In this document: positions 1 through 9,197 of the stretch, piece by piece
How positions within the stretch are numbered: the stretch's first letter is position 1
Layout of the letters: every line of letters starts with the position of its first letter
Assembly: GCA_947588675.1 (NCBI GenBank)
Contig: CANPYY010000001.1
Coordinates: 62,001 to 126,000, forward strand
Source: an uncultured Lachnospiraceae bacterium
Lineage (GTDB): Bacteria > Bacillota > Clostridia > Lachnospirales > Lachnospiraceae
DNA length: 64,000 bases
Direction of reading: 5' to 3'
Made by a program: the position numbers and the translations under genes
Notes under the pieces: model-generated
Told to the model about the DNA's origin: nothing
Databases searched by the model: none
Seen by the model: only the letters and a program-made list of their open reading frames with translations

Positions 1-1101
1 ATTTCAGGAAACACAAAAACATTAAGCCTGCTTTTACGCTCAGGAATAAATAACGCTATTGCGCTTCTGCTAAGGCGCAATAAAGTAAATCCCACACTTC
101 TGAAACAGGTTATTATTTCATGCAACAATACAATGCAGCATATACTTTTCGGTCTTGACTGCACTCCGCTTTCAGCATATCCTTTTAAATCGCAGAACAC
201 GGTATTTAAAACACGGCAATATAACAGTTTTTTCAATACAGATACTGCGCACGAATCTTTTATGGATAATTGTACGGCGACCATACATACAATAAGCTCT
301 TTTGCCTCATTTATAGGCGGCGACATAGTATCAGGGCTATACAGTCTCGAACCGTTTGAGCCGCAAAAAACTTTTCTGTTTCTGGACTTAGGCACAAATG
401 CGGAAATGGTTTTAGGAACCGGCGCACACATGATATGTACCTCTGCCGCCGCAGGCCCTGCATTTGAAGCAGCAAGCCTTTCCTGCGGATGCGCATATTC
501 TCCCGGAGCAATATACGATATTACCATAAACGCCGCCAAATCCGGAAATTACAATATAAAATACAAAACCATACAAAACAAAATCCCAACCGGAATATGC
601 GGAAGCGGTATATTAAAACTCATCTCACAGATGTTAAATACAGGTATCATTGATTCTTACGGTACCCTTTTGGAAGAATATTCACAGGATGGCTTTTTAG
701 TTGCAAAATCCTCCGGACATAATATCCGTATAACCCAGAAAGATATACGTGAAATCCAGCTTGCTATTTCGGCAATACGTACCGGAATTGACATATTGCT
801 GCAAAAAACAAGTCTTTCTGCCTCTGACATAGATACCGTATATATTTCCGGAAGCTTTGGCTCTGCTCTTAATTTCTATGACATACAAAACTTAAATATT
901 CTGAAACCGGAATGGCTAAACAATCCTGAAACAATAAAAATCTCCGGAAACACGTCTTTAAACGGCGCAATAAAATATTCATACGACAAATTTGCTGATT
1001 TTAAAATAAATAATCTTATATCACGGCTTGAAGAAATTATACTCGCAGGAGATGATTCCTTTAACAGTTTATTTATGGATAATATTAACTTTTCTATTTA
1101 A
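1..1101 (+). CDS. DUF4445 / RACo-like ASKHA-domain protein, 5' end outside window
   Basis: The reading frame is open from base 1, so the track start at 133 is internal; upstream codons give more family sequence before CNNTMQHILFGLD. The visible part resembles the C-terminal ASKHA ATPase domain of ferredoxin-like proteins that reductively reactivate corrinoid proteins (RACo/RamA, DUF4445). Supporting motifs are FLFLDLGTNAEMVL (nucleotide-binding loop), CTSAAAGPAFEAA, PTGICGSGIL and, near the end, VYISGSFGSALN. The usual N-terminal 2Fe-2S ferredoxin domain would lie outside the window, so whether it exists cannot be checked. The stop codon lies inside the convergent tad-locus gene, an 8-base overlap. 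The family is clear; the partner corrinoid enzyme is unknown. Confidence 0.8.
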   Translation: MSGNTKTLSLLLRSGINNAIALLLRRNKVNPTLLKQVIISCNNTMQHILFGLDCTPLSAYPFKSQNTVFKTRQYNSFFNTDTAHESFMDNCTATIHTISSFASFIGGDIVSGLYSLEPFEPQKTFLFLDLGTNAEMVLGTGAHMICTSAAAGPAFEAASLSCGCAYSPGAIYDITINAAKSGNYNIKYKTIQNKIPTGICGSGILKLISQMLNTGIIDSYGTLLEEYSQDGFLVAKSSGHNIRITQKDIREIQLAISAIRTGIDILLQKTSLSASDIDTVYISGSFGSALNFYDIQNLNILKPEWLNNPETIKISGNTSLNGAIKYSYDKFADFKINNLISRLEEIILAGDDSFNSLFMDNINFSI

Positions 1102-1555
1102 AAAAAGTTATTCCAGTCATTTTGTAATACAATACATTTGCAATTATTACACCTAAAACAAAAATCAAATCAGCCGCAAAAAAAGCTTTTTTATTATTCA
1201 TATTCTCCCCATATGACGTAATAATATTGTATATTCCATCTATTCCTTCATTATAAAAGGCGTCTTTTATATCTTTAACAAAATCATATACTTCCTTTTT
1301 TGCATATTTAAGCCTCGACGACAAAAAAATTATAAGCTCATAAATCTCCCTGTCGATATCCTTTTTGCATACGCCGTTTTTATTTTTTATAAAACGTATC
1401 TTTCTCCTGTCCGCATCATACTCAATATTTTCTATATTTACGGAAACTTCATTATTAGCATATCTGACGGCGCAGACAGCCTTAAATAATATGTATATAT
1501 CTTTTTCATCAGGCATATTCTGCATGATGAAATCACTAAAACACAGATAACTCAT
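1094..1555 (-). CDS. small C-terminally anchored membrane protein, last gene of tad operon
   Basis: A 153-residue protein of unrecognised family. The first 120 residues are soluble-looking, charged and partly helical. A single hydrophobic helix near the C-terminus (AADLIFVLGVIIANVLYY) is followed by a short tail, so it is probably membrane-tethered. Its ATG overlaps the stop of the upstream TadE-like gene by 4 bases, which implies translational coupling and a role linked to the Tad pilus. A DUF6382-like or other tad-associated protein is possible, but I cannot show that. Expression as part of the operon is an inference from the spacing. Confidence 0.65.
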   Translation of the reverse strand: MSYLCFSDFIMQNMPDEKDIYILFKAVCAVRYANNEVSVNIENIEYDADRRKIRFIKNKNGVCKKDIDREIYELIIFLSSRLKYAKKEVYDFVKDIKDAFYNEGIDGIYNIITSYGENMNNKKAFFAADLIFVLGVIIANVLYYKMTGITFFK

Positions 1556-1956
1556 TTTTCTGCTATTTTAATCCCCCTTATTATATTGCTGTAATCAGCA
1601 ATATAATATCTGCTTTCAATATTAAAGTCATCAAACATCTTTATACTGCATTTAAGCTTCGCATTGACAGTAATATTCATACTTCCGTACTTTACACGAA
1701 TACCTTCCATATTGCATACAAACAAATGATTTAAACACCTTTTTTCCAAAGCCGCTTCTGCTTTCTCCTCATATTCCTGCGCATTACATTTTACAGTATT
1801 ACCGCATTTTCTGCTTTCTTCTGCAATTTTACCTATCTCCATATACACATATGCCCTGTCATGCATGACAAACACCGTATATATAAGCACAATTATTATC
1901 ATTACACACATAGGAATAATCAATGCCGCCTCTACGGTAAGCGATGCCCTTTTCAT
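1552..1956 (-). CDS. TadE-like pseudopilin
   Basis: A 134-residue protein that begins MKRASLTVEAALIIP: a short basic leader followed by the SLTVEAA motif and one long hydrophobic helix (residues about 10-32), the standard TadE/prepilin-like arrangement with a processing site just before the helix. The rest is a small extracellular domain with three cysteines. A GGAGG ribosome site precedes the ATG. It sits 9 bases after the other TadE-like gene and overlaps the next gene by 4 bases. TadE/TadF-type pseudopilins are minor subunits needed for Tad pilus assembly; which of the two genes here is TadE and which TadF cannot be decided. Confidence 0.85.
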   Translation of the reverse strand: MKRASLTVEAALIIPMCVMIIIVLIYTVFVMHDRAYVYMEIGKIAEESRKCGNTVKCNAQEYEEKAEAALEKRCLNHLFVCNMEGIRVKYGSMNITVNAKLKCSIKMFDDFNIESRYYIADYSNIIRGIKIAEK

Positions 1957-1965
1957 AAAAACCTC

Positions 1966-2604
1966 CTAACCACACTTACTGCATACTCTCCTGTCATATA
2001 CCTCGTTTAACTTTACAGCCATTACATTCCTGGATATGGCTGTACATGTATCGGTAATATGATAGTGATTACCATATCGCGATATATACACCACCTTATC
2101 CGGTCCGGTAATATCATAATTTTTTCCAATACATTTCGTACACCTTCTGTACTTACTCCCGCTTTTATTTCTTTTATACCCGATATCCGAATATAAAACC
2201 TTTTCTGTGCTCACCTTAATATATGTACATGCGCTGTTTCTGTGGTATACGCTTCCATTTGCAGTTATATATACAATCTCCGAATCTTCTTCATCCGATA
2301 TATAATCCACTCCGGTAAAACGCCTCATATATACGCCCTGTTTTAACTTCAACTTAACAAGCGACAGCACCGGACATTCCATTTTCATAAAATAATTTCT
2401 ATAAAGCGTTATTTCTTCTTCATCGTTTTCTTCATGCAAATGCGTATATGATAAAGCAGCCACAGTCCTTGCTTCATTAACAAGTCCCTTTTGTATATTT
2501 TCCGCCGTCGAAAACCACATAATCATATATATAAGCGCAACTACAGAAAAGAAAAACAACGGAAATACAATTGCCGTTTCTACGGTAAGCGACGCTTTTT
2601 TCAA
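1966..2604 (-). CDS. TadE-like pseudopilin with two tandem Cys/His modules
   Basis: The track ORF starts at 2676 (GTG, poor ribosome site). I prefer the TTG at 2604, which lies 10 bases after AGGGG and gives a product starting LKKASLTVETAIVFP, matching the leader of the sister pseudopilin. Residues about 12-35 form the pilin-like helix. The C-terminal half holds two copies of one pattern: VYIT..GSVYHRNSACTYIK ... RRCTKC and VYIS..GNHYHITDTCTAIS ... RRVCSKC. Each is a beta-like start, YH, a lone Cys, then CxxC, which suggests a metal site or disulfide knot. Similar YHxxxC...CxxC elements occur at the C-termini of some secreted nucleases. Binding of zinc or of a surface ligand is inference. Length is 212 residues with the chosen start. 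Confidence 0.82.
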   Translation of the reverse strand: MKKASLTVETAIVFPLFFFSVVALIYMIMWFSTAENIQKGLVNEARTVAALSYTHLHEENDEEEITLYRNYFMKMECPVLSLVKLKLKQGVYMRRFTGVDYISDEEDSEIVYITANGSVYHRNSACTYIKVSTEKVLYSDIGYKRNKSGSKYRRCTKCIGKNYDITGPDKVVYISRYGNHYHITDTCTAISRNVMAVKLNEVYDRRVCSKCG

Positions 2605-2733: not shown

Positions 2734-4695
2734 TTATCTGTAATAATACTCTGTTTCTGACTCACAATAATATGGATAATTACACTCTATATACAGCTTT
2801 GCGCCATATGCTGCATTTTGAAACGAGAATAGATTTGAATATGCAAGCTTCATATTATACTGTATAATATCCATGCTTCTGCAAAGACATTTTTTCTTTC
2901 CCGACATACTCAAAAACAAATTCAGAAAATCAGAATACTTTGCGCCGGATTTATAGTTAATCCTTTCTGCCTTTTCGCTTATAAGTTTTTTATTAAACAG
3001 CGGTATTTCATGATATTCTATGTTCAGATTATCTTTCTTTTTTAAATAAGGTATTTTCTTTCCATTAAGCAGCGCGCTTACATCGACACAGGCATCTTCA
3101 TATGCCCAGCCTGCAAGTATAATATACTGGGTGCATCTTACCAGCGCATCCATCCCGGTAAACCCTACAATGGCTGCTGCCGAAGCATAGGCAAGATTTC
3201 TTTTTTCCCTGTCTGAAATAAGATATGCAAAAGACTCTCCCGTCCTTATAAGAATAATCTTATTTACTACTGACTCAATATTTTCCCTGTCGCTTTTTTT
3301 GCCGCTTATTATGTACTCCTTTTCATACGACAGAGCCTTTTTTGTGTCCGCCTGTTCGCCTGCATTCGTAAAATCGCTGAAATACTCGTTTATGTATAAC
3401 TCAAGGCGTATAATATCGTTAAGATTGGAGAACGAAATATCCGCTTTACATAAGTCCACATAATCGGACAGCTCCTCAGCTTTTTTAAAATCGGGATATA
3501 CGTTATCCTCTTTATCCTCCTCAGATATACCTTCATATATACGCGCCTCGCTTATACATGCTGACGATATTTCACTATCACCTGTAGGGAAAGATACAAT
3601 ACCGGAAGGATTGTTATCCAGATTTTCCACGGGATTATCTTCAGATTTTAAAGATAGCGTACTATAATCAAAATACAAATCCTTTATATGATATCCTTTT
3701 AACGCCGTCATGCACTCCAAAATATTATTTTCTGCATTTTTAAATCCATTAAGTATATCCAGATTTTCACCAAGTTTTTCTTTTATTCCCTTTACATCGC
3801 ATATACAGCTTTTCCGCATTTCATCCGATATATCTCCGTCAATATCCTCTGCAAGTTCATATGCCTGCTTTGTAACCCCGTAAAGTCCATCAACTTTTTT
3901 AAGGAACTTATCAAAGCCCTTATCAGAAATTTCTCCGCTGTCTTTACTCATTTTTTCCAGCTCGGCTGATATATTCCACTTACTGTCTTTTACTGCTTTC
4001 CAGACCTGCGGTGAATCTATCCCTGAAGATGCCTCTGAAATATTTTCCGTAACGCCCGACTTTACATATACTGTTTCGCACTTTATTTTTCCGTTTTTAA
4101 TATATATACCCTCGACCAGCCTGAGAAGTTTAAGTATACGCTCCTGTATATATGCATCCTCCGTTATATTTTCGGTTTCTGAAACCACATCGTCAAGAAT
4201 ACTGTCGCTCTCTGCGTATCCCGAAAATCCTTCGTTTATTTTCTGATACAGCGTATCGGCTGCTTTTTCACCAAGTGTATATACTATTCCATCCGTCATC
4301 TGCTCCATAACATTACCGTATCCGTTATCTGACGCATAATACTTTTCCACTACATCAAACCCGGATGGTTTTAGTTTTAAAAGCCCCGGCATATCTTTCT
4401 GGTTCTTAATAAAATACGAAAGAATATTGGCATCCATCGCATTATTATCACTATCCATGTAATATAAAAGCCTGTAATCCTCAAACAACGGCCTGTAAAA
4501 CTTTCCAAACTCTGACTCCGTTGAAATATCAAGACACCTCTTAATATTTGTCTTTTCCGCCTGATAACAAAGTATAGCGCATACCGCCATAAACAACATC
4601 ATTACAACCATAAATATAAGCGCCAAAAAAACTGTACTGCTGCCCTTTTTTACACATTTATAACCCTTTGCCCTTTTATTCAATAATCTCACCAC
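2734..4695 (-). CDS. DUF5702 protein of the tad locus (TadG-like)
   Basis: A 653-residue protein with one N-terminal membrane helix (residues about 19-47) preceded by the pilin-like stretch KKGSSTVFLALIF, then a long, acidic, lysine-rich extracellular domain with predicted coiled-coil stretches. The SSTVFLALIFMVVM opening and the position in the locus match the DUF5702 family found in clostridial Tad loci, where it appears to replace TadG. The track start is GTG at 4695, which overlaps the Flp gene by 20 bases. A TTG at 4683 preceded by GGTGAG is an equally good start. The role in pilus assembly is inferred from location. Confidence 0.75.
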   Translation of the reverse strand: MVRLLNKRAKGYKCVKKGSSTVFLALIFMVVMMLFMAVCAILCYQAEKTNIKRCLDISTESEFGKFYRPLFEDYRLLYYMDSDNNAMDANILSYFIKNQKDMPGLLKLKPSGFDVVEKYYASDNGYGNVMEQMTDGIVYTLGEKAADTLYQKINEGFSGYAESDSILDDVVSETENITEDAYIQERILKLLRLVEGIYIKNGKIKCETVYVKSGVTENISEASSGIDSPQVWKAVKDSKWNISAELEKMSKDSGEISDKGFDKFLKKVDGLYGVTKQAYELAEDIDGDISDEMRKSCICDVKGIKEKLGENLDILNGFKNAENNILECMTALKGYHIKDLYFDYSTLSLKSEDNPVENLDNNPSGIVSFPTGDSEISSACISEARIYEGISEEDKEDNVYPDFKKAEELSDYVDLCKADISFSNLNDIIRLELYINEYFSDFTNAGEQADTKKALSYEKEYIISGKKSDRENIESVVNKIILIRTGESFAYLISDREKRNLAYASAAAIVGFTGMDALVRCTQYIILAGWAYEDACVDVSALLNGKKIPYLKKKDNLNIEYHEIPLFNKKLISEKAERINYKSGAKYSDFLNLFLSMSGKKKCLCRSMDIIQYNMKLAYSNLFSFQNAAYGAKLYIECNYPYYCESETEYYYR

Positions 4696-4843
4696 TATTT
4701 ACGTCTATATTATTTAAAGCATTATTTACAATAGTGGTTATCTTATCTTTGAATATAAGCACAAGCGCTATAAGTATAACAAGTATCAATATAATTTCCA
4801 CAACACCTATTGCATCCTCATTACTCCAAAATTCTTTTAACAT
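4676..4843 (-). CDS. flp: Flp1-type Tad major pilin (missed by the ORF track)
   Basis: This is a 55-residue reading frame, below the track cutoff, read from the ATG at 4843. It begins MLKEFWSNEDAIGVVEIILI, then a continuous hydrophobic helix (about residues 12-31) and a short tail FKDKITTIVNNALNN. A charged short leader, Gly-Val-Val-Glu at the start of the helix (Glu5-type position) and small size are the marks of Flp1-like type IVb pilins. AGAAGGAAGGGG precedes the ATG. It lies between the tadB/C fusion and the DUF5702 gene, the expected place. Cleavage by the prepilin peptidase of this locus would probably occur at or near the Gly in the AIGVVE region. It should be the structural subunit of the pilus. 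Confidence 0.9.
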   Translation of the reverse strand: MLKEFWSNEDAIGVVEIILILVILIALVLIFKDKITTIVNNALNNIDVNSGEIIE

Positions 4844-4859
4844 AATTACCCCTTCCTTC

Positions 4860-6416
4860 TCATAAAGATATAATCGCCGGATACATTATAATTATTAACA
4901 CCAGTATAAACTGTAATATTATCGGGAAAAGAAGTTTGGACGAAGCTTCCTCACCCATACGTTTTATACTTTCCTTTCTCTGACCATAAGCATCAAGCGA
5001 ACTCATATTCAACTGCTCCAATATATATCTGTTTCCCTTTTTCAGATTGTGTACAAGTATTGCGCTAAGCTTCATATATGGTATAAGCCTTATACGCTGC
5101 CCGAATCTTTCATACACTACCGATTCCGGCGTTCCGCTTTTCAATTCCAAAAGCGACTTTTTCATTTCTTCATAAACATAATGCAAACCCGCTTTATTAC
5201 TGCTATTATTTTCCGTATAGTCATTCACAATCTTTTCCCATGCTCTTTTCATACTGCTGCCTGCTCCAATAAGAAGGCATATCCTGTTAATAACATCCGG
5301 ATAATCCAAAATCAACTGTTCATCCCTGTACTTTAATTTTCTATCTACTTCCTTTAATTTCATATACGGTATGGAAACTGCAACCGCTGCCGCAAAAAGC
5401 AATACATAAACAATATTTTTACCGCCGGACAACACGTCTGCCATAACAATTACGCCGGCTGCCGCAAGACCTGTCTTTGCATATGCAAACCATTCATTCC
5501 AGAATCTCCTGCACGCCTCATTCTGCGGAATATCAATGTATACTTTGGCAGCCTTTTTTGATATTTTATCAATAGTCCCGCCAAACCTGCCTTTTTTCAA
5601 TATCCTGTACAATCTGCAGAAATCTCCTGAAAAATGCTTTTTACCTGATGTTTTAATTTCTTTACTGCTTTCAAAGCTCATTATCTTTTTCGCAATATAA
5701 TATGATACTGCATAAATAACCAGACATATTGTCATTACAGCCTGACCGGCAATATTGCCATACATTACATCCATATATCCGGGAGAACATATTCCAAGAT
5801 ATATAAGCATCCCTACAGGCATTATGCACATAATCCTGTATTCCAGCTTTTTTCCTGAAATAAGCGTCCTTATTTCACCCTCTATTTCCCTTCTGTCGTG
5901 TATATTTTCCGCCGTCTGTTTTACTATTGAAATAATATTTCCCCCGCTTTTTCTTGCTACAATAATAATTTCCGAAAATGTATGAATATCGTCAATTCCG
6001 CTCCTTTTAGCAAAATCCATCAGTATACTCTCTATTTTACAGTTAAACTTAATTTTCCTGCATATATTACCTAATTCACAAAGTATATCCCTTTTATCAT
6101 CATAAAGCACAGACAGCTCCTTCTTAGCCTCGTAAAAAGAATTTTCCAGTGAATAACCTGTTATAAGCGCATTGGAAACACTTTCAAGCATTTCTTCAAA
6201 CCCGCACTCCAGCGCCCATTTTCTCTTTTCAATCCTGTTTCTTTTATAACCTTTCACAAATAATACCGACATGGGTACAATAATTGCAACAAATACAAAA
6301 ATGCTCCTGTAAAACAGAAATGATACAATGCCATCTGCAATTGCCGACATAACCAGTACCGCAATAAGTTCATATAACGACATGTTATATCTGTTATAAT
6401 CTACTTCACTGCCCAC
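4860..6416 (-). CDS. TadB-TadC fusion, Tad pilus inner-membrane platform
   Basis: The track ORF starts at 6440, but the GTG at 6416 has an AGAAAGGAAG ribosome site 6 bases upstream and gives a 518-residue protein; an ATG at 6383 is also possible. Two type II secretion F (T2SSF) domains are present in one chain. The first includes ECGFEEMLESVSNALITGYS and SGIDDIHTFSEIIIVARKSGGN. The second includes LDYPDVINRICLLIGAGSSM and the terminal membrane helices (ILQFILVLIIIMYP). Standard tad loci encode these as separate TadB and TadC proteins of about 300 residues each. The frame starts inside the tadA end, so translation is probably coupled. It should form the membrane platform on which TadA drives pilus assembly. 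Confidence 0.85.
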   Translation of the reverse strand: MGSEVDYNRYNMSLYELIAVLVMSAIADGIVSFLFYRSIFVFVAIIVPMSVLFVKGYKRNRIEKRKWALECGFEEMLESVSNALITGYSLENSFYEAKKELSVLYDDKRDILCELGNICRKIKFNCKIESILMDFAKRSGIDDIHTFSEIIIVARKSGGNIISIVKQTAENIHDRREIEGEIRTLISGKKLEYRIMCIMPVGMLIYLGICSPGYMDVMYGNIAGQAVMTICLVIYAVSYYIAKKIMSFESSKEIKTSGKKHFSGDFCRLYRILKKGRFGGTIDKISKKAAKVYIDIPQNEACRRFWNEWFAYAKTGLAAAGVIVMADVLSGGKNIVYVLLFAAAVAVSIPYMKLKEVDRKLKYRDEQLILDYPDVINRICLLIGAGSSMKRAWEKIVNDYTENNSSNKAGLHYVYEEMKKSLLELKSGTPESVVYERFGQRIRLIPYMKLSAILVHNLKKGNRYILEQLNMSSLDAYGQRKESIKRMGEEASSKLLFPIILQFILVLIIIMYPAIISL

Positions 6417-7648
6417 AAAACACTTCCTTTCTGCGCACATCCCGCCATCTGCCTTTCATACAGCTTATATGTTTTTTCCATAGCATTATCCGTCCTTACA
6501 AGCATTCCTGACTTATGCTCTTTTACGTCATTCCTATATCTGTACAACTGATTAAGCTGCAGGTCATTTTCTTTGTATATTACTTCCGATATATCAAACA
6601 CCTTTCGTGTTCCGTCGGATAGCCTGCCCAGATGAATCAGAATATCTAACGCTGAGCCTATTTGCCGTCTTACTGCTCCTGCAGGTATATCGCTTGCAAT
6701 AAGCACAAGCGTTTCAAGCCTGCTTATCATATCCTTCGGACTATTCGCATGTCCCGTGGAAATACTTCCGTCATGTCCTGTATTCATTGCCTGAAGCATA
6801 TCAAGCGCCTCCGCGCCTCTTACTTCGCCAACAATTATCCTGTCCGGTCTCATCCTCAAACTTGTTTTTATAAGTTCTCTTATAGTAACTTCATTTCTGC
6901 CTTCAAAATTAGCATTACGCGTTTCAAGCCTTACAAGATTTTCAATTCCCTGTATTTTAAGCTCCGCAGAATCTTCTATCGTAACCACTCTTTCACGTTT
7001 CGGTATATAATTTGAAAGCGCATTTAAAAAAGTTGTCTTTCCGCTCCCGGTTCCTCCGGATATGAAAATATTGTATCTGGCTTTAACAATATTTTTCAGA
7101 AAATCTGCAGCATCCTTAGTAAGCGTATTTAATCTGACCAGCTTTTCCAGAGTATAATCCTGTTTCGGAAACTTCCTTATTGTAACTATTGGTCCGTCTA
7201 TCGCTACAGGCGGCATGACAACATTTACACGCGAGCCGTCCGGCAGTCTTACGTCAACAATTGGAACAGACTCATTCACAATCCTGTTGTGCCCTGACAC
7301 AATATGCTGTATAACATCGGTCAGTTTTTCAACGGATTCAAATACTTTTTTATATCTGTACATCTCGTTATTTTTCTCGTAAAATATGTCGCACGCCCCA
7401 TTAATCATAATATCGGTAATGTCATCGTCCTCCAGAAGTTCAGATAAAATATCATAACCTGTAAGGGAATGTATAATATTACGTTTTAACCTGAGCTTTT
7501 CCTGAACGGGTACATAGTACGGATAATTTATAATTTCATCATCAATACATTCCAGAAGCCCTGCATCGTCATACGCCTCTTTTTCCCCAATGTCCTTTAA
7601 CACACGTTCGCTTATGACATTTTTAAGTAACAATATTTCATTTTTCAT
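6401..7648 (-). CDS. tadA: TadA/CpaF secretion ATPase of the Tad pilus
   Basis: A 415-residue hexameric secretion ATPase of the VirB11/CpaF type that powers pilus assembly at the inner face of the membrane. Visible elements are the N-terminal all-alpha region, ITDIMINGACDIFYE (typical CpaF entry motif), VNVVMPPVAIDGPIVTIRKF, Walker A ISGGTGSGKTTF, the Asp box VVTIEDSAEL, Walker B RIIVGEVRGAEAL and the His box TGHDGSISTGHANSP. All catalytic motifs appear intact. The gene starts 11 bases inside tadZ and ends inside tadB/C, so the block is translationally coupled. Length is normal for CpaF. Confidence 0.95.
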   Translation of the reverse strand: MKNEILLLKNVISERVLKDIGEKEAYDDAGLLECIDDEIINYPYYVPVQEKLRLKRNIIHSLTGYDILSELLEDDDITDIMINGACDIFYEKNNEMYRYKKVFESVEKLTDVIQHIVSGHNRIVNESVPIVDVRLPDGSRVNVVMPPVAIDGPIVTIRKFPKQDYTLEKLVRLNTLTKDAADFLKNIVKARYNIFISGGTGSGKTTFLNALSNYIPKRERVVTIEDSAELKIQGIENLVRLETRNANFEGRNEVTIRELIKTSLRMRPDRIIVGEVRGAEALDMLQAMNTGHDGSISTGHANSPKDMISRLETLVLIASDIPAGAVRRQIGSALDILIHLGRLSDGTRKVFDISEVIYKENDLQLNQLYRYRNDVKEHKSGMLVRTDNAMEKTYKLYERQMAGCAQKGSVLWAVK

Positions 7649-8579
7649 AACTTACCCATTTACTTCTCATATCCTGTCTTTCACTCCACCAGGCGGGAAG
7701 CTGTATTACCTTAATATCATTAATAAGCTGCTCACGTCCGTATACAGCCATGTCATGCCAAAGATGCTTTATTCTCATACTTCTTTCATCCATTACAGGC
7801 ATATGTATATCATTGCAATGCGCAAGAACGTCATAAACCGAATCACCCATAAACCCGGCATCAATAACAATCATGTCAAACTCATCAATAGCATCTATAC
7901 ATTCAAACAGCCTGTCCACATCATCCGATGAAATATCATACAAATCCCTGTAATGCTTTACTCCTGAAACAGATTTGTAACCCTCCTCATCATTAAGCAT
8001 TGCAAGAAGCCTGTATGAAGCAGATTTACTGCTTTCATGAATATAGTATATAAGCTCGCTTATCCCTTCCTTTATTTCACAGTCATGCTCTGTAAGCTCT
8101 GCCAGATTAATATAAAGTACCTTTTTCGTTCTTCCATATACTGCTGCAAGTTCACGCGCATACTGTTCCCTCTGTTCAGAAAAACAAGGTGAAAATATCC
8201 CCAGTACATAAAGGTTTTTATTGCCCGAACATTTATATAACTTACCCTCATCTTCTTCCGCAAATATGCCGTATATCTGTTTAATAATAGTATCTATACG
8301 CTGAAATTTATATACATAGGTATATTCGCTTTCTCCAACGTACTTTTCTTCTGAAAGTATTGCAACCTTTGATTTGTACAATAATTTTTCATGACCTGCA
8401 AACGCCGCATCTAACAATATTAAATCCACATGATTGTTTTTTTCATACCTGTCAAGCGCTTCCTTAGTATCAAATGTCTTTACCAGCATCCGTCCGCCTT
8501 CATTTCTAATGCAATAATCAGAAAACGCAGTAAGATAACGCTTGTCCTTTATACACAGAGAAACTATTCTTCTGCCCAT
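7638..8579 (-). CDS. tadZ: TadZ/CpaE-like pilus localisation protein with degenerate P-loop
   Basis: A 313-residue protein with a response-regulator-like N-terminal half (DLILLDAAFAGHE) and a MinD/ParA-like C-terminal half (VLYINLAEL, FDMIVIDAGFMGDSVYDVL), the TadZ/CpaE arrangement. These proteins mark the polar or surface site of the Tad machine. The position where Walker A should lie reads VLGIFSPCFSEQREQYA, with no GK[ST], so ATP binding in the usual way looks lost; the Walker B-like Asp remains. The assignment rests on fold pattern and position directly upstream of tadA. A strong GGAGAAGGAG site precedes the ATG. Confidence 0.8.
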   Translation of the reverse strand: MGRRIVSLCIKDKRYLTAFSDYCIRNEGGRMLVKTFDTKEALDRYEKNNHVDLILLDAAFAGHEKLLYKSKVAILSEEKYVGESEYTYVYKFQRIDTIIKQIYGIFAEEDEGKLYKCSGNKNLYVLGIFSPCFSEQREQYARELAAVYGRTKKVLYINLAELTEHDCEIKEGISELIYYIHESSKSASYRLLAMLNDEEGYKSVSGVKHYRDLYDISSDDVDRLFECIDAIDEFDMIVIDAGFMGDSVYDVLAHCNDIHMPVMDERSMRIKHLWHDMAVYGREQLINDIKVIQLPAWWSERQDMRSKWVSYEK

Positions 8580-8610: not shown

Positions 8611-9135
8611 TCAGATAAACCATCCGCAATAAACAGTAAAAAAACTTAAACCAATTGCTGCAGTAAAAGGAATTGCCGCATCTTTACCGTCACGTTCCCT
8701 GATATAATATGCTCCTATTGTTCCTGTCTTTATAATATTTCTGATATATTCAGCGAAATACTTCATACGATTTTTCAGATATCCAAAACGGATACAACGA
8801 ATAACAGATAATATACCACCGATAAATAGTGCCATAATAAATACTTTTATACTATAAACAGCACCGTAAAAGCCTCCTATAACCGATATAATCTTAATGT
8901 CTGCGGCTCCAATCATTTTAAAATAAAATAATATAAACAATAGAATTAAAGGAACAGATGCTCCAAAAATCCAGTACACAACCCCATATATACCGGAAAC
9001 CCTGATTCGTAAAAGCAGCCCTATGCACCAGCCCAATACAATTAACCTGTTTTCAACTTTAAGATGCATAATATCCTCAAACGCTGCAACTGCCAAAATT
9101 ATAGTAATGCAGCATATACCAAATAATTCTTTCAC
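8611..9135 (-). CDS. A24-family prepilin peptidase (TadV/CpaA)
   Basis: A 174-residue polytopic membrane aspartyl protease, first gene of the tad operon. The two catalytic aspartates are in AAFEDIMHLKVENRL (first) and KMIGAADIKIISVIGG, the second a GxGD-like motif in which Ala replaces the second Gly. The short length without an N-methylation domain fits the TadV/CpaA class rather than PilD. It should cleave the leaders of the Flp pilin and the two TadE-like proteins downstream. The start is GTG with a poorly spaced AGAAGG, so the first residues are uncertain. Confidence 0.88.
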   Translation of the reverse strand: MKELFGICCITIILAVAAFEDIMHLKVENRLIVLGWCIGLLLRIRVSGIYGVVYWIFGASVPLILLFILFYFKMIGAADIKIISVIGGFYGAVYSIKVFIMALFIGGILSVIRCIRFGYLKNRMKYFAEYIRNIIKTGTIGAYYIRERDGKDAAIPFTAAIGLSFFTVYCGWFI

Positions 9136-9154: not shown

Positions 9155-9190
9155 ATATTGTATTACATATGATAGCATGTATTACAATAT
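9155..9190. promoter_or_regulatory. inverted repeat over the tad promoter, candidate operator
   Basis: Two 14-base arms, ATATTGTATTACAT (9155-9168) and ATGTATTACAATAT (9177-9190), are reverse complements at 13 of 14 positions and separated by 8 bases. They cover the spacer, the -10 box and the start region of the tad promoter, so a bound dimer would block RNA polymerase. No neighbouring regulator gene suggests itself. Confidence 0.6.
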
Positions 9191-9197
9191 GTGTCAA
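9169..9197 (-). promoter_or_regulatory. tad operon promoter
   Basis: On the minus strand a consensus -35 TTGACA (9192-9197) is followed after exactly 17 bases by TATCAT (9169-9174), about 34 bases before the first tad gene. It is the only good promoter seen for the locus, so the nine genes are probably one transcript. Confidence 0.75.

Follow-up and report, generated by a model that had tools for sequence, protein, structure and literature searches.

A TadE-like pseudopilin with two tandem, probably zinc-binding modules in a Tad operon of the Lachnospiraceae

Why should a small pilin end in two copies of a compact Cys/His module? This question is raised by a gene in the 64,000-nucleotide stretch of DNA from an uncultured Lachnospiraceae bacterium analysed here (the window), whose product a sequence-only reading had described as a TadE-like minor pilin with two YH-C-CxxC modules. 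By computation, we established the extent of the gene, its prepilin motif, the duplication of the module, the homology of both copies to a mobile module, their conservation and the composition of the locus. The interval assigned to the gene, 1966-2604, proved exact; it is located on the minus strand, starts with a TTG codon at 2604 that is preceded by a Shine-Dalgarno sequence (AAAAGGGG), stops at 1966, and encodes a protein of 212 amino acids. The closest orthologues begin with MKRASLTAE or MKRASFTVE, and match this start position.

The N-terminus of the 212-amino acid product reads LKKA followed by SLTVETAIVFPLFFF, and its leader and prepilin peptidase site (LKKA↓SLTVE, with Glu at position +5; 2578..2604, minus strand) are conserved: among 108 homologues, Gly or Ala is found at position −1 in 106 and Glu at position +5 in 107. 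A hydrophobic α-helix follows, which spans residues 8-52 in the AlphaFold2 model (2449..2583, minus strand). The profile PF07811 scores 18.4 bits against the window pseudopilin, below its curated cut-off of 22.9, and matches 12 of 14 homologues at E ≤ 1 (best 2.1e-5). Prepilin motif and genetic context together support the earlier assignment of the protein as a TadE-like pseudopilin, for which processing and a role in piliation are predicted.

The pseudopilin gene sits in a complete monoderm Tad operon that is read from right to left, with every gene on the minus strand. A candidate promoter, recognised by consensus match only (TTGACA-17-TATCAT, 11/12, extended TG; 9169..9197, minus strand), precedes the operon and its gene for an A24 prepilin peptidase (TadV-like; 8611..9135; PF01478, E 1.6e-11). 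There follow a TadZ-like protein (7638..8579; PF21194, E 4.4e-4, below the cut-off), the TadA ATPase (6401..7648; T2SSE, E 1.1e-58), a fused TadB/TadC platform protein (4860..6440), assigned from its two-domain length and context with a T2SSF match below the cut-off (E 0.0023), and, judged by its sequence, a candidate Flp-like major pilin of 55 amino acids (4676..4843). The locus thus encodes TadA, TadB/TadC and a prepilin peptidase. Immediately upstream of the pseudopilin gene, in a TadG-like position, lies a gene for a DUF5702 protein (2734..4695; E 5.7e-64), and this arrangement recurs in 76 of 79 loci; the DUF5702 protein is probably the TadG-like partner of the pseudopilin. A search of the literature for DUF5702 found no paper. 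Downstream are a second TadE-like pseudopilin of 134 amino acids without the module (TadE2; 1552..1956; weak match to PF07811) and, as the last gene of the operon, a membrane protein of 153 amino acids (1094..1555) that is present in only one of the 79 loci.

The same genome has a second tad-like locus (L230; G000:C33:10000-22000) with genes for TadA, TadB, TadC, TadZ, a TadE-like protein and a protein of 1078 amino acids with similarity to DUF5702. A search for the module at this second locus found none. As it adjoins integrase-like and DNA-modification-like genes, it may be carried on a mobile element.

The two tandem modules of the pseudopilin are real. Module 1 comprises residues 109-159 (2128..2280, minus strand) and has the pattern Hx4C-x28-CxxC (H121, C126, C155, C158), while module 2 comprises residues 170-212 (1969..2097, minus strand) and has the pattern Hx4C-x20-CxxC (H182, C187, C208, C211); both were delimited by homologue alignment, profile comparison and AlphaFold2. 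They share the sequence (V)VYI(T/S)..G..YHxxxxC ... CxxC. Alignment of the two halves, by which the sequence-only reading had proposed to check the repetition, gave 31% identity (BLASTP, E 6e-5), and comparison of the two module families by HHalign gave a probability of 98.9% with a score of 72, as against 10.7 ± 2.8 (maximum 18.2) when the columns other than Cys and His were shuffled. Shuffling the tail of the protein 200,000 times never produced two motifs, and none of the other reading frames of the window has two. The copies differ by an eight-residue RN-x-SGxKY insertion ahead of the CxxC motif of module 1 (residues 145-152; 2149-2172, minus strand), a loop that is nearly invariant. It is missing from one homologue (L201) and from those of another family of Clostridia (L202, L205). 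In L201, module 1 without the RNxSGGKY loop reads AKASGYTPCEFC and resembles the mobile form of the module, which suggests that the loop is a later addition.

This mobile form occurs as a single C-terminal copy elsewhere outside the cell: on SNase-type nucleases, on MBL-fold (ComEC-like) proteins and on lipoproteins, as well as on one peptidoglycan-binding and one choline-binding-like protein. Secreted MBL-fold (ComEC-like) proteins of Clostridia and other Firmicutes often end in one Ada-like HCCC module (L163, L165, L175, L180, L212, L214, L219 and L227 are examples). Both TadE modules are homologous to the mobile module at profile level, beyond the Cys and His positions of the YHx3-4C ... 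CxxC pattern: HHalign gave 99.0% (score 74) for module 2 and 98.4% (score 64) for module 1, and shuffles with Cys and His held fixed reached maxima of 25 and 18, respectively. The suggestion that similar modules are present on secreted nucleases is thereby borne out. The mobile copies share with the TadE modules the sequence VYIT.xG.xYHx3-4C ... CxxC and an extracellular, C-terminal position, but they are single and borne by soluble enzymes or lipoproteins, whereas the TadE modules form a tandem pair on a pilin; most of them have EAxxxGYxPCxxC where TadE module 1 has its RNxSGGKY insertion.

Some of the single-module proteins score above the Pfam cut-off for Ada_Zn_binding, and a chain of profile comparisons leads from the TadE modules to the N-terminal zinc domain of Ada (PF02805). 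The mobile module matches Ada-like domains with 97.8%, and these in turn match Ada with 98.7%, both far above shuffles with fixed Cys and His. Direct comparison of Ada with the two TadE modules gave 48% and 30%, which is not significant; the link to Ada hence rests on intermediates, and membership of the TadE modules in PF02805 is not claimed. PF02805 itself found no match in the window protein, in 14 homologues or in the whole genome. On these profile comparisons, each TadE module is of the mobile extracellular kind and, through the intermediates, a relative of the Ada zinc domain. Both have a four-ligand site ending in CxxC, built from a strand, a helix and then the CxxC motif. In Ada, the Cys at the first position is the methyl acceptor. 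The TadE modules, which are extracellular and pilin-borne, do not have the four-Cys ligand set with the reactive Cys38 of Ada: the first ligand is His in 108 of 108 homologues, so that methyl transfer is not expected, and we dropped this reading. Scans of the protein and its homologues with Pfam and NCBIfam models did not name the modules; matches to DUF6100 and other Pfam models were below the cut-off, occurred in few homologues and were set aside as chance. Sequence searches of the PDB with the protein and its profiles returned only chance zinc-finger and beta-propeller matches.

AlphaFold2 modelled the full protein (66 homologues) with a mean pLDDT of 88.4 and of about 90 in the modules, and arranged it as the helix (residues 8-52), a β-hairpin (residues 64-94) and the two modules, each of which consists of a strand, a short strand, a strand, a helix and the CxxC motif. 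The module pair modelled alone reached a pLDDT of 88.2 and a pTM of 0.65; with pTM values of 0.52-0.65, the placement of the modules is uncertain. Foldseek searches of the PDB with the full model and with the module pair gave no fold match. In the viral library, the best match, at a probability of 0.97 and an E-value of 0.5, is annotated 'Metal binding domain of Ada', as are two others of the top 13; the E-values to these domains are not significant by themselves.

How widely is the duplicated module kept? In a search of relatives, the pseudopilin gene was found in 10 of 10 members of the genus and in 25 of 27 other genera of the family; the genome of one of the two genera without it is 60% complete. 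Every homologue examined at full length has both modules. A scan of 84,980 species, made with an alignment of three sequences as one of 14 diverse sequences retained no conserved stretch, identified the 79 named loci, nearly all of them from Lachnospiraceae or Clostridia, including Eisenbergiella tayi, Robinsoniella peoriensis, [Ruminococcus] torques and Dorea phocaeensis. Both full HCCC motifs are kept in 106 of the 108 homologues, so that the C-terminal module recurs in other clostridial tad loci and its absence from orthologues, named beforehand as grounds for discarding the observation, did not come about: all clear orthologues have it. The eight putative ligand positions hardly vary, and their spacing is x28 in module 1 of 104 of 106 homologues and x19-22 in module 2. 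The two exceptions are L099, in which CSC stands in place of the first CxxC, and L111, a partial copy of 84 amino acids. The latter, from Suipraeoptans intestinalis, lies on a separate small contig. It covers the last part of module 1 together with module 2, and there its sequence is the same as that of the full gene of the genome from which L024 comes. A single-module profile matched 148 of 150 genomes (one per Lachnospiraceae genus; a count of profile matches, of which that in G016 is weak, E 0.0015), most of them with a gene of TadE length. Two genomes of another family of Clostridia have the same gene adjoining a DUF5702-like gene.

The reading that we consider probable on balance is that of a minor pilin of a monoderm Tad pilus whose head, displayed at the pilus tip, is rigid, basic and stabilised by zinc. 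The A24 peptidase would cut the pseudopilin at A↓SLTVE, and the N-terminal helix would anchor it in the membrane and then in the filament. Each module would fold round one zinc held by His-x4-Cys and Cys-x-x-Cys, and the pair would form a rigid, basic head that joins DUF5702 and TadE2 in a priming and tip complex. Module 2 would represent the generic form, while the RNxSGGKY loop of module 1 probably makes a family-specific contact. The net charge of the module pair, which lies beside or after an acidic linker region, is +11 in the window protein and has a median of +4 in the homologues. Zinc, a location at the tip and a role in binding to surfaces or polyanionic polymers are what we infer from these data. 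Duplication is also a feature of PilJ of Clostridioides difficile (PMC4471445). This Gram-positive minor pilin with its duplicated head belongs to a T4aP system, and it is the pilin fold that is present twice, not an Ada-like module. In the Tad (Kil) system of Myxococcus, TadE/F/G-like minor pilins have been proposed to prime the filament and to form its tip (PMC12075869), and the window protein shares with TadE, TadF and TadG the prepilin motif, the tad locus and, by analogy, this putative role; it differs from them in its zinc-type modules as the head and in its DUF5702 partner. In Micrococcus luteus, TadE/F were undetected in sheared pili (PMC4322843), so that a location at the base rather than the tip may apply.

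The sequence-only reading had left open whether metal or disulfides stabilise the modules. Each has three Cys and one invariant His, and total Cys counts among the homologues are variable and often odd, which favours one zinc per module over disulfides; the modules are probably zinc-binding, and disulfides as the sole explanation were dropped on Cys parity. CxxC motifs are frequent in thiol-redox proteins. Although the modules are extracellular, a function of the cysteines as disulfides or as a redox switch instead of metal ligands is very unlikely, given not only the ligand pattern and the odd Cys totals but also the anaerobic lifestyle of the family and the kinship of the modules with a zinc domain. 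With their HCCC ligand sets facing the outside of the cell, the modules might also be taken for a head that acquires or senses metal by scavenging extracellular zinc; the structural type of the motif, its near-fixed spacing and the lack of a zinc transporter in the operon make this extremely improbable.

A tentative possibility of more substance is a purely structural role, in which the modules would be folds nucleated by zinc that stand in for the usual β-head of a pilin and serve only assembly, priming the filament with DUF5702 and TadE2, with no external ligand. Near-fixed spacing, invariant ligands amid variable surface residues and the obligate DUF5702 neighbour agree with this, as does the priming of assembly by minor pilins in the Tad system of Myxococcus (PMC12075869). 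Single copies on unrelated secreted proteins suggest a portable property instead, conservation of the RNxSGGKY loop exceeds what folding needs, and the second tad locus of the genome apparently manages without the module. That the basic tandem modules hold extracellular DNA, with the Tad pilus serving DNA capture or uptake, is unlikely. The module is common to SNase-type nucleases and MBL-fold ComEC-like proteins, it is distantly akin to the DNA-contacting domain of Ada, and Flp pili are required for transformation in M. luteus (PMC4322843); relatives retain ComEC, some of them without a PilB-class ATPase match. Yet the module is also found on lipoproteins, on a peptidoglycan-binding protein and on a choline-binding-like protein without a link to DNA, the pair is not basic in a quarter of the homologues, and the window genome has PilB/PilT-type ATPases that could handle DNA uptake. 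Seven genomes (G006, G012, G014, G016, G017, G019 and G022) keep ComEC and gave no PilB-class ATPase match above the Tad type; they are possible candidates for Tad-dependent DNA uptake. The broader proposal that the tandem zinc head of a near-universal Lachnospiraceae Tad pilus has extracellular DNA or some other surface polymer rich in phosphate as its ligand, and so makes the pilus a family-wide organelle of DNA capture or contact, is decidedly doubtful.

TadE-like pilins and the mobile Ada-like zinc module were known as parts; what seems to be new is the duplicated module as the near-universal, putative head of the Tad pilus of one family. No paper on zinc modules in TadE proteins came up in literature searches, nor did a published function for the mobile zinc module of secreted nucleases. 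The Lachnospiraceae rank among the most common bacteria of the gut, and a match to the module is present in almost every genus sampled; since nearly all genera keep it, the module pilin is probably an important, hitherto undescribed part of their pili. If the pilus head is indeed zinc-stabilised, it would connect the tips of pili with a portable zinc module that secreted nucleases also carry, and would provide a sequence handle on the contacts that these pili make with host mucus, other cells or DNA.
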